47,500 bases of DNA from an uncultured Gammaproteobacteria bacterium (GTDB lineage Bacteria > Pseudomonadota > Gammaproteobacteria > UBA6429 > Thiohalophilaceae): assembly GCA_913064945.1 (NCBI GenBank), contig CAJYAN010000004.1, forward strand, positions 1 through 47,500, written 5' to 3'. Shown here piece by piece: positions 18,044 to 22,141 of this stretch. How positions within the stretch are numbered: position 1 is the stretch's first letter; each line of letters begins with the position of its first letter. The position numbers and the translations under genes are program-made. The notes under the pieces were generated by a model. That model did no database searches. It saw nothing but the letters and a program-made list of their open reading frames with translations, and was not told where the DNA came from.

Positions 18044-18601
18044 CTAATGATGTGGTGTTACCGGCTGACGGTTGACCACCAGGTCTTCTTCAATGGGCAC
18101 CATCTCAACACTAAAGGACAGCGTCTGCAGGTCGCCGAGGATATACGTCGGCGCTGCGCCCACCCCGCCTACCGTGCCTGGATTGAGATAGAGTGTCTGT
18201 GTGCCTTTTATGTTGTCAATGCGGGCAATCTTACTGCGGTGGTCATGACCGCAGCAGACAATATCCCAATCACCCGTGGTGGCCATGGCCTCGGCATAGT
18301 GCGGATAGTGCACCATAAAGATTTTACGCGTGGCCAGCTCAAGACCGGCATCCTGACCGTGGTAGTGGAGCAAATTTCCACTGTCATGCGCCAGCTGCGC
18401 CATGTTGTAGAGGTCACCGGTATTATTACCGTGAATGACGTGCACGGGCAGGCCAAGCGGGATCAGACTGCGTAGCGTGGTTGGGGCGACAACATCACCA
18501 CAGTGCAAAATGGCCTCGGCCCCCTGGGCCTGTGCGGCGCGGGCGGCGGCGGCTAACAGGAAGCGGTTGTCGTGACTATCCGACAGAATACAGACTTTCA
18601 T
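18044..18601 (-). CDS. YfcE/MJ0936-family metallophosphoesterase
   Basis: 185 residues. The calcineurin-like metal motifs are DSHDN (8-12), GDVV, GNNTGD (58-63), HYPH and GHDHRS (117-122). Characterised relatives hydrolyse phosphodiesters with Mn2+; the natural substrate is unknown. The gene follows ppa by 17 nt on the same strand, so they are probably one transcript. It is convergent with the GGDEF-EAL gene, 3 nt apart. Confidence 0.88.
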   Translation of the reverse strand: MKVCILSDSHDNRFLLAAAARAAQAQGAEAILHCGDVVAPTTLRSLIPLGLPVHVIHGNNTGDLYNMAQLAHDSGNLLHYHGQDAGLELATRKIFMVHYPHYAEAMATTGDWDIVCCGHDHRSKIARIDNIKGTQTLYLNPGTVGGVGAAPTYILGDLQTLSFSVEMVPIEEDLVVNRQPVTPHH

Positions 18602-18618
18602 GGGTTTACCTTAACGAT

Positions 18619-19167
18619 TTAGAAACAGGGTTTTTCAGGTGCCTGGTCATAGCGCTGGATAGAGTCGAGTATCTCGTGTTTGGCGGCGTCGACGCCGGCC
18701 CAGCCCTCGATCTTGACCCATTTACCCTGTTCCAGATCTTTGTAGTGTTCGAAGAAGTGCTGGATTTGATTCAACAGCATCGGGGAGACGTCTTCCGGTG
18801 ACATCACCTTACGATAGGACTGACAGAGTTTGTCGATCGGTACAGCCAGCACCTTGGCGTCGGGGCCTGCCTCATCGGACATTTTCAGGACACCGACGGG
18901 GCGACAGCGAATAACGGAACCGCTAATCAATGGGATGGGAGTAATCACCAGCACGTCCACCGGGTCACCATCTTCCGACAGGGTGTGTGGTACGTAACCG
19001 TAGTTACACGGGTAGTGCATGGCAGTGTTCATAAAGCGATCTACAAACATGGCACCGGTTTCCTTGTCGACCTCATATTTTACCGGGTCACTGTGGGAAG
19101 GAATTTCGATAATGACGTTGACATCATCAGGGATATTCTTGCCGGGACCGACGCGATCTAGATTCAT
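18619..19167 (-). CDS. ppa: Inorganic pyrophosphatase, family I
   Basis: 182 residues (E. coli 175). It hydrolyses pyrophosphate to drive biosynthetic reactions. The signature DGDPVDVLV (66-74) and the substrate-binding [27 protein letters not shown] and KWVKIEGW regions are complete. An AGGAATT precedes the ATG. Confidence 0.95.
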
Positions 19168-19684
19168 AGTAATTCCTTTAGTGCCTGTTGCGATGGTGAA
19201 AAAACGCGCATTCTAACAGCCTGAGCCAAAAAGAAAATCGTTGTCTGCTCAATGTTCAGGACGTGCTGCGCCGCAATACGCCATACCGACCTTAAAATAC
19301 TGTTCAAACAACGACTAAACGTCATTATACACTAGGACAGGCTATGGTCGTGCCGGTGTATTTTGCATCTCATGGCCGACTTCTCCCGTCGCTGTGGCCC
19401 TTCCTGGGCCCGGTATGAAGGTGTGGCTGCGGCCGCGGGAATCGCGCGAATCAGCTAGTTACTGCATGCGCCTGCCAGTGATGGGTGATGCCGGAGCATC
19501 CATCGACAGGGCTCTGCTGATGACAACAACCGGGCATAGGTTCCTGCGGCCCCGCAAATTTCCGGCGTGACAACGGGGGGATGCTTCCAGTGGCTACCAG
19601 ATGCTATGCGTCGAAAAAAGCCTGTGCGCGGTTGGAGTGCGTGATGATATATTTGAAACCCTGCATAACAGTGCCTGATTAACA
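19168..19684. other. Intergenic stretch with no supported gene
   Basis: About 500 bp between ppa and the adk promoter. Short open frames exist on both strands (for example a 24-codon frame from ATG 19344, with AGGA upstream), but none shows family similarity. I see no tRNA, terminator or repeat. It is G+C-rich, like decayed coding sequence. Confidence 0.4.
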
Positions 19685-19713
19685 TTGACTTGCACAGGGC
19701 AAGCGACTAGGTT
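19685..19713 (+). promoter_or_regulatory. Candidate sigma-70 promoter for adk
   Basis: TTGACT (19685-19690), a 17-nt spacer and TAGGTT (19708-19713), 99 nt upstream of the adk start. The -35 is good and the -10 weak. Confidence 0.4.
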
Positions 19714-19811
19714 TATTCGACCGGAACGTCATTTGTGGTGCGTCTCCGGGGAGCACATTCAGCGCTCATCACAAACATTAATAATAGAATACTTAATCAT
19801 GGAGTAAATAA

Positions 19812-20933
19812 ATGAGAATCGTATTGATCGGTGCCCCGGGCGGGGGTAAGGGTACACAAGCCAAAAAATTAGTTGAGAGGTATGGCATCCCCCAGATTTC
19901 AACCGGCGATCTATTACGTGAGGCCGTGTCAGCAGGTACCCCGCTGGGCATACAGGCGAAAGCCGCGATGGAAGCCGGTCAACTGGTAACCGATGATATT
20001 GTCCTTGGCATGATTCGCGACCGACTTTCGAAGGCGGATGCACGCAAAGGGTTTATTCTAGATGGTTTCCCGCGCAATATTCCCCAGGCAGAGTCTCTCG
20101 ACAAAATGCTGGCCGAAATGGGGCAACCGCTACAGACCAGTCTATTGATTGATGTGGATTTTGACGTTCTGATGCAGCGTCTCACGGGGCGTCGTACCTG
20201 TCAGTCCTGTGGACAAATGTATAATATTTTCACTTCGCCTCCCCGTCTTGAGGGGCAATGCGATAAATGCGGTGGCGAGCTTTTGCACCGTGCGGATGAC
20301 AATGAGGCGACTATCGCCAATCGTCTACGCGTCTATGAAGCGCAGACTGCCCCGCTGATCGATTATTATCGTAGCCAGGGTAAATTGCGCACTGTACAGG
20401 GTGTTGGTGAAATCGCCGATATTTACACGGCCGTCCTGCGTGCCCTGGAGAGTCTGCCTGGTGACGCCAAACCCGATAGCGCAAAAAAACCGGTTGAGAA
20501 GAAAAAGTCGGTTGCGAAAAAGAAAACCGGCAAGAAAAAGTCTGCTGCCAAGAAATCAGCAACGAAAAAGAAAGTGACCAAGAAAAAGGCGACGAAGAAA
20601 AAGGTCGCCAAGAAAACAGTAACGAAGAAGAAGGCTACCAAGAAGAAAGTTGCCAAGAAAAAGGCTACCAAGAAGAAAGTTGCCAAGAAAAAGGCTACTA
20701 AGAAAAAGGTGACGAAGAAGAAGGCGACGAAGAAGAAGGTCGCCAAGAAAAAGGCGACGAAGAAGAAGGCTACCAAGAAGAAGGTCGCCAAGAAAAAGGC
20801 GACGAAGAAGAAGGCTACCAAGAAGAAGGCTACCAAGAAGAAGGTCGCCAAGAAAAAGGTGACGAAGAAGAAGTCTACTAAGAAAAAGATCGCAAAAAAG
20901 AAAGTAGGTAAAAAGAAGGCCAGGCGTCGTTAA
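19812..20933 (+). CDS. adk: Adenylate kinase with a long lysine/alanine-rich histone-H1-like C-terminal tail
   Basis: 373 residues against about 215 for the family. Residues 1-216 are a complete long-form adenylate kinase: P-loop [10 protein letters not shown] (7-16), [16 protein letters not shown], and a LID with C130-x2-C133-x16-C150-x2-C153, a zinc site found in many bacterial Adks but absent from E. coli. From about 217 on, the protein is a low-complexity repeat of K, A, T and V ([10 protein letters not shown] units), like the DNA-binding tails of AlgP and chlamydial Hc2. The frame is continuous with no internal stop. An ATGGAGTAA-type ribosome-binding site precedes the ATG. A tail binding nucleic acid is inference. 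Confidence 0.93.
20497..20922 (+). repeat. Degenerate tandem repeat encoding the Adk tail
   Basis: Roughly 30-nt units built from AAGAAGAAGG and GCCAAGAAAAAGG blocks, repeated about 14 times with synonymous and A/T/V-changing variation. The units are purine-rich on the + strand, so replication slippage could change tail length without breaking the frame when whole codons are gained or lost. Confidence 0.85.
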
Positions 20934-20965
20934 GCGATCATGTGAATGGCATTAGCAAAGTAAAT

Positions 20966-20988
20966 GGCGGGGTTATTCCCCGCCTTTT
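20966..20988 (+). terminator. Rho-independent terminator after adk
   Basis: GGCGGGG pairs with CCCCGCC across a short TTATT loop and is followed by TTTT. It begins 33 nt after the adk stop. Confidence 0.8.
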
Positions 20989-21058
20989 ACCCTGCAGGAG
21001 CGATATTGATCGTTGTGGATAACTTTTGCAATGTGTCAAAAGAGGCTGAAAGGTAAAC

Positions 21059-22141
21059 ATGATGGCGAATGATGTCTTGAGTCCGGATCAGGAACTTCTC
21101 AATGCCAGGGTGTTGGTGGTGGATGATCAAGCCGTTAATGTCAAGCTGTTGGAAAAAATTCTGGATGCGGCAGGTTACCGCAATGTCGTGACGACAACCG
21201 ATTCACGTGAAGCGGCGAGCTTGTTTCAAGAGTCTCCCACCGATCTGGTCTTATTGGACCTGAATATGCCGCACAAGGATGGTTTTGAAGTTTTGACTGA
21301 AATTAAGGCCATGGAGAAAGATTATCCTCCTGTCATTGTGTTGACTGCACTCAAGGACGTCGACTCTCGCGTGAAGGCCCTGGAAAACGGTGCCCGTGAT
21401 TTTATCTCTAAACCCTTTGATCGTGTTGAACTCTTATCACGTATGCATAATATGCTGGAAGTGCGCTTATTGCATAAGGCGGCGCGAAATCAAAACATAA
21501 TACTCGAAGAAAGAGTACGTGAGCGTACCCAGGAACTGGAAGAGACCCGTATGGAGATCATTCGTCGCCTTGGACGGGCGGCAGAGTATCGTGATAATGA
21601 AACGGGTTTGCACATTATTCGCATGAGTAAGTTCTCCCAGGTCTTAGCCCTGGCGGCAGGTATGGATGAGGAGGATGCAGAAATGATCCTCAATGCCAGT
21701 CCCATGCATGACATTGGCAAGATCGGGATTCCGGATGCTATTTTACTCAAGCCTGGAAAACTGGATGCCAGTGAATGGACGACGATGAAAAAACATTCGA
21801 CTATTGGTGCCAAGATTCTTTCCGGTCATCCTTCGGCGCTAATGCAAATGGCGCGTGAAATCGCCCTCACGCACCATGAAAAATGGGACGGCAGCGGCTA
21901 CCCGATGGGGCTGCGTGGAGAAAAAATACCCTTCAGTGGCCGAATCGTGGCGTTAGCTGATGTCTTTGATGCTCTGACCTCGGAACGACCATATAAAAAT
22001 GCCTGGCCAGTAGATGAGGCAGTGACCTATATAAAAGAAAATAGTGGTAAACACTTTGAGCCATGCCTGGTCGAATTATTTATTGCCAGCCTGGATAAAA
22101 TTATCGCTATCCGGGATAAATATGCTGAACCTGGTGAGTAA
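21059..22141 (+). CDS. Response regulator with HD-GYP c-di-GMP phosphodiesterase domain (RpfG-like)
   Basis: 360 residues. A receiver domain (16-135) with phospho-acceptor D67 and K118 is followed by a linker helix and an HD-GYP domain with MHDIGKIG (216-223), LTHHEKWDGSGYP (270-282) and DVFDALTSERPYK. All metal-binding residues appear intact, so it should hydrolyse c-di-GMP on phosphorylation. No sensor kinase is adjacent. Two ATGs (21059, 21062) are possible. It is the second c-di-GMP enzyme in the window. Confidence 0.93.
   Translation: MMANDVLSPDQELLNARVLVVDDQAVNVKLLEKILDAAGYRNVVTTTDSREAASLFQESPTDLVLLDLNMPHKDGFEVLTEIKAMEKDYPPVIVLTALKDVDSRVKALENGARDFISKPFDRVELLSRMHNMLEVRLLHKAARNQNIILEERVRERTQELEETRMEIIRRLGRAAEYRDNETGLHIIRMSKFSQVLALAAGMDEEDAEMILNASPMHDIGKIGIPDAILLKPGKLDASEWTTMKKHSTIGAKILSGHPSALMQMAREIALTHHEKWDGSGYPMGLRGEKIPFSGRIVALADVFDALTSERPYKNAWPVDEAVTYIKENSGKHFEPCLVELFIASLDKIIAIRDKYAEPGE

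Follow-up and report, generated by a model that had tools for sequence, protein, structure and literature searches.

Introduction

Basic tails have been described on several bacterial proteins, and in the available parts of the source texts those of AlgP (PMC9239181), PhaF (PMC3574117), HupB and Streptomyces TopA (both PMC5676037) bind DNA or stabilize DNA complexes. AlgP is also reported, in the same portion of PMC9239181, to associate with polyphosphate (polyP) granules, the spacing of which requires the tail. Metabolism based on a pyrophosphate (PPi)-dependent phosphofructokinase (PFP) has been described in a methanotroph in the available text of PMC7298851; adenylate kinase is not mentioned in the main text of that paper, and in PMC3574117 the term occurs solely in the title of a reference. 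A literature search that covered a minority of subscription journals returned no description of a lysine-tailed adenylate kinase, nor, with partial coverage of the enzyme, of a PFP with such an extension.

Adenylate kinase (Adk) sets the balance between AMP, ADP and ATP, is generally essential, and is usually regarded as freely diffusing. The locus analyzed here lies in a window, meaning the whole stretch of 47,500 nucleotides that was analyzed, on contig CAJYAN010000004.1 of an uncultured gammaproteobacterium (assembly GCA_913064945.1; family Thiohalophilaceae). The genome, referred to below as G000, comprises 3.2 Mb in 22 contigs.

Enzyme core and tail

Positions 19812-20933 of the forward strand form a single open frame of 373 codons, from an ATG at 19812 to a TAA stop at 20931-20933, and a GGAG at 19801..19804 (+), found in the sequence and by script, is the likely ribosome-binding site. 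Residues 1-212 (19812..20447, +) constitute an Adk core of the long type with a four-cysteine LID. This core scored above the cut-offs of the NCBIfam models NF001380 (299 bits, cut-off 251) and TIGR01351 (250 bits, cut-off 168) and of both Pfam ADK (PF00406) and ADK_lid (PF05191). In an alignment of 20 rows, the LID cysteines C130, C133, C150 and C153 were unchanged, G7, G10, G12, T15, R123, R160 and R171 were invariant, and K13, G14, R36 and R88 were nearly so; these P-loop, arginine and cysteine positions presumably have the roles that general knowledge of the enzyme assigns to them. The best solved structure by sequence was 5g3y (E 1e-77), and AlphaFold, run with a 20-row alignment, gave residues 1-210 block means between 83 and 96, indicating a confidently folded core. 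Judged by family score and key residues, the protein is a complete long-type zinc-LID Adk, which bears out the original prediction on this point.

The core is followed by a short linker (residues 213-224; 20448..20483, +), seen in the sequence, where model confidence falls, and then by a polycationic tail of KKK(A/T/V) repeats with RRR at its end (residues 225-373; 20484..20930, +). Altogether 161 residues lie beyond residue 212, of which 85 are lysine (53%), giving a net charge of +84; F, W, Y, C, H and M are absent from the tail, and proline is nearly so. Past residue 220 the AlphaFold model was all coil with pLDDT values of about 45-51, and the tail is accordingly predicted to be disordered. 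The frame and coordinates of the lysine-rich extension were thus as originally proposed, and its estimated length of about 155 residues was close to the 161 counted after residue 212. Its supposed likeness to histone H1 and AlgP also held, in that the tail is long, basic, of low complexity and, by prediction, disordered; searches of Pfam and NCBIfam at E <= 0.001 gave no match of the protein to curated H1-like models, and none to Pfam HC2.

None of the in-frame start codons within the tail is accompanied by a Shine-Dalgarno-like motif, and separate translation of the tail was rejected on this ground. An RNA element at the locus was likewise considered and dropped, as an Rfam scan of positions 18500-21200 returned no match. 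Downstream, a GC-rich inverted repeat followed by TTTT (20966..20984, +) may be the adk terminator, although the hairpin scan itself reported a hairpin for the minus strand only.

The divergent neighbor of adk is ppa, encoding a soluble inorganic diphosphatase (18619..19167, -; NF002317 292 bits, cut-off 200; synteny). The gene was present in the fetched stretch of 45/82 tailed and 20/28 tail-less loci, where some stretches were cut by contig ends and locus L150 was counted as tail-less. Because ppa lies near adk in many relatives of both kinds, it is not a tail-specific neighbor; it is context, not part of a tail system.

Conservation and spread of the tail

For the order of the window, 24 genomes with a completeness of 90% or more were sampled; G000 is among them, and they all belong to a single family. 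A close orthologue of the window Adk was found in 22 of these, while genomes G008 and G028 carry the tail-less type only. Amongst 26 family loci examined, nine are cut off by a contig end within the tail or linker; the other 17 reach a stop codon, and all 17 are tailed (86-285 aa, 40-62% lysine).

In a wider search of the class, 147 of 370 genomes had an Adk that matched the window core at E <= 1e-65, and tails were looked for only among these. From the 147 genomes, 100 loci were fetched, one per genome and none from the family of the window. Under a rule of at least 40 residues with at least 14% K+R, which admits L201 with 47 aa, 73 of the 100 were tailed. This became 75 after two rows were read by hand, namely L150, which is partly N, and L207, which is cut by a contig end and is P/A-rich with 12% lysine. 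The remaining 25 orthologues had no tail. By hand count the tailed loci span 40 family codes. Ten loci came from named relatives (Ectothiorhodospiraceae, Chromatiales, and further MAGs labeled gammaproteobacterial or proteobacterial), and eight of the ten were tailed.

Composition was compared over 73 tails, comprising 72 class loci and the window, with L145, L150 and L167 excluded for containing N. Lengths ranged from 47 to 315 aa (median 190 aa), with a mean lysine content of 34% and a mean net charge of +65. Core GC spanned 36-70%; the proportion of lysine codons that are AAG tracked it (rho 0.61), and the lysine content of the tails varied only weakly with it (rho -0.27). The tails were little conserved in sequence but conserved in charge; in the 20-row alignment, the linker was not conserved. 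In L156, L176 and L185, another segment follows the lysine-rich part. When 102 rows were scored on a tree, the tail required eight state changes; this was a tree of a quick kind, with the tail-less Adk group as outgroup. Of its 105 inner branches, 25 were starred and 45 open, and the tree has several long branches.

An assembly or frame artefact was rejected as the source of the tail, which recurs in independent genomes, including the single-contig genomes G055, G436 and G672. The tail is genuine, is read in frame with the core, and is conserved in its composition. With all 17 family orthologues that could be read to a stop and 75/100 class loci tailed, it is not an assembly error absent from relatives, nor is it an oddity of one genome. 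A search for other Adks with lysine-rich tails, as the original prediction had suggested, found them across the class and also in a separate group defined by NF010381. Members of this group scored above cut-off in 7/299 genomes elsewhere in the phylum, and all seven carry K/A-rich tails of 93-118 aa; we take these seven genomes to be Bradyrhizobium-like alphaproteobacteria.

Adenylate kinase copy number

Copy number was compared in 58 genomes drawn from both sets, 38 tailed and 20 tail-less. In 14 of the 38 tailed genomes the tailed protein was the only Adk found, and for this reason the tailed form presumably works as an enzyme; the other 24 have further copies. A single copy was found in 19/20 tail-less genomes. 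The second Adk of G000 is tail-less, spans 215 aa from the start of its P-loop, is 51% identical to the window core, and groups on the tree with Adks from three relatives that also lack a tail, separately from the tailed type.

The presence of further copies followed that of AprA. AprA was encoded in 24/38 tailed and 2/20 tail-less genomes, and amongst the tailed genomes a further Adk was found in 21/24 with AprA versus 3/14 without it (counts that ignore ancestry). This association points to a role for the tail-less copy in sulfur oxidation that consumes AMP.

Lysine-rich extensions on other proteins

When G000 was queried with the Adk tail at E <= 1, four other proteins were returned; the search missed the PFP extension described below, so the list is biased and incomplete. 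An H1-like protein of 144 aa (contig C1; locus L212, 1495-1926) consists almost entirely of KKK(A/T/V/G) repeats, and Pfam returned nothing for the 132-residue part tested. DksA (contig C19; L213, 1081-1719; TIGR02420 173 bits, cut-off 115.5) has a lysine-rich N-terminal extension, and extended DksA-like proteins were seen by eye in relatives (L236-L238). RNase R (contig C9; L215, 1492-2955) has a lysine-rich C-terminal tail. The part of this protein that was scored passed TIGR00358 and, at 592 bits, came just below the TIGR02063 cut-off of 597.85; tailed RNase R-like proteins in relatives (L221-L227, L240) were recognized by eye only. The fourth protein, of 349 aa (contig C8; L214, 598-1644), has a lysine-rich N-terminal extension and is weakly ParB-like, below cut-offs; its gene and the tail-less adk are about 2 kb apart. 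Of these four companions, two, namely DksA and RNase R, are clear RNA or RNA-polymerase proteins.

A protein of about 200 aa in a relative (genome G001, contig C2; L235) has a lysine-rich C-terminal part and, by eye, an AlgP-like layout; Pfam returned nothing for it.

Genes for PFP and for the membrane pyrophosphatase HppA were more frequent where the tail occurs. PFP was encoded in 36/38 tailed versus 8/20 tail-less genomes, and HppA in 33/38 versus 4/20; these tables, like the polyP kinase counts given below and the Fisher values calculated, take no account of ancestry. PFP lay within about 5 kb of adk in 59/75 tailed versus 4/25 tail-less loci, and in the tailed loci that were laid out HppA and PFP often sit between ppa and adk. 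After correction for ancestry on the tree, the association of the tail with PFP neighborhood came down to three independent pairs, counting starred branches only. Two tailed genomes, G057 and G438, have no PFP.

The PFP of G000 (contig C16, 67173-68543; L241, 3674-5044; NF010675 647 bits, cut-off 273) itself carries an N-terminal extension of 41 residues, 19 of them lysine. Lysine-rich N-terminal extensions of 14-63 residues from the first M were present in 9/9 genomes of the window's family (L241-L249; weak in L243 and L244). Seven more extended family PFPs (L228-L234) were found through their match to the tail and stand outside this unbiased count. Beyond the family, the extension was seen in 4/63 loci. 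Genome G008 has an extended PFP yet only a tail-less Adk, and therefore the PFP extension and the Adk tail need not co-occur.

Proposed role of the tail

We propose that the window encodes the housekeeping Adk of a PPi-using gammaproteobacterial lineage, and that its disordered polycationic C-terminal tail is an electrostatic tether, likeliest to nucleic acid; we assign this reading a probability of roughly one half (0.52). The folded core would carry out the ordinary ATP + AMP = 2 ADP chemistry, while the tail would fix the enzyme on a polyanionic scaffold, for which nucleic acid in the form of the nucleoid, RNA or ribosomes is the likeliest candidate. AMP set free at this scaffold would then be recharged on the spot by the tethered Adk. 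We infer the binding of the tail, its ligand, its location and its benefit; the tether to a polyanion that had been predicted is still the best reading in view of the tail's composition, the companion proteins and the published DNA-binding tails, although one of the ligands then named, polyP, now appears unlikely in general. Nucleic acid is our first choice because DksA and RNase R have such tails and because published tails, in the available text, bind DNA. Against a tether to nucleic acid, the tail is dispensable in some lineages, as the 25 tail-less orthologues indicate, and PFP, which has no known nucleic-acid role, is similarly extended in the window's family, an observation that fits a general scaffold equally well.

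The alternatives differ mainly in what the tail would bind, if anything. The tail might bind polyP granules as AlgP does, which would place Adk beside polyP:AMP/ADP phosphotransfer. The AlgP tail, as described in the available text of PMC9239181, favors such an arrangement, and the polyP kinase PPK1 is encoded in 27/38 tailed genomes, including that of the window. PPK1 is, however, no commoner with the tail than without it (18/20 tail-less genomes), and neither PPK1 nor PPK2 was detected at E <= 1e-10 in 8/38 tailed genomes, including the single-contig genomes G402 and G443, compared with 1/20 tail-less genomes. Because of these eight genomes polyP is improbable as the general ligand, and we regard this explanation as distinctly unlikely; by analogy with AlgP, polyP may nevertheless be a ligand in species that make it. 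Alternatively, the tail could be a tag that assembles a group of PPi and adenylate enzymes on an anionic membrane or a condensate near HppA. The frequency of PFP and HppA in tailed genomes, the proximity of PFP to adk, and the extension of PFP itself in the window's family all point in this direction. Yet with three independent pairs on supported branches the association may reflect shared ancestry, extended PFPs are rare outside the family, PFP is missing from the tailed genomes G057 and G438, the extended PFP of G008 occurs without a tailed Adk, and the tail has no hydrophobic anchor. On balance we consider this unlikely.

The tail could also have little function of its own, being a slippage-prone repeat that expanded neutrally or that aids solubility. 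At the DNA level it is a degenerate tandem array whose periods are 30, 45 and 60, its length varies widely, and a quarter of the class orthologues do without it; a few rows also appear shifted in frame late in the tail (L033, as well as L150 and L167 beside runs of N). This reading sits poorly, however, with the retention of frame and charge across 40 family codes and a wide range of GC, and with the appearance of lysine-rich tails on another Adk group and of a lysine-rich extension at the opposite end of PFP. We judge this explanation rather improbable. Least probable, and in our view very unlikely, is that the tail acts on its own enzyme by drawing in anionic nucleotides or regulating activity; a strong charge beside an enzyme with anionic substrates would suit such a role, but the several-fold variation in length and the unconserved linker suit a tether better.

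The tether to nucleic acid can be extended to a larger arrangement, which we offer as a speculation and consider doubtful as a whole. Adk, through its C-terminus, and PFP, through its N-terminus, would be anchored by polycationic tails to a nucleic-acid scaffold shared with the lysine-tailed DksA and RNase R. Gammaproteobacteria that use PPi and often oxidize sulfur would then possess an energy-charge unit bound to the nucleoid or to ribosomes, alongside a separate soluble Adk for AMP-consuming sulfur oxidation. The PFP extension hints that the scaffold may organize metabolism too. Taken together, the charge-conserved Adk tail and the similar extension of PFP in the family suggest that some bacteria keep a portion of their nucleotide and pyrophosphate metabolism in a fixed place.

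Comparison with known systems

The window protein shares its core, P-loop, LID cysteines and conserved arginines with bacterial Adks of the long zinc-LID type (TIGR01351, PF00406 and PF05191), and differs from them in its 161 extra residues. The Adks of NF010381/PRK13808 likewise have a K/A-rich C-terminal tail; however, their cores are about 41-44% identical to that of the window protein and occupy a different place in the tree, and the window Adk scored 204 bits against this model, below its cut-off of 426, and so falls outside the group. The tails of AlgP, PhaF, HupB and TopA are, according to the available text, similarly long, basic, repetitive and disordered, but these are DNA- or granule-associated proteins, unlike the metabolic enzyme described here. 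The repeats of AlgP are moreover KPAA, whereas those of the window tail are KKK(A/T/V), almost without proline. Chlamydial Hc2, as far as the available text describes it, also consists of lysine-rich short repeats of variable length, but is a free DNA-binding protein. What is new here is that a tail of a kind already known is carried by a universal enzyme of metabolism.
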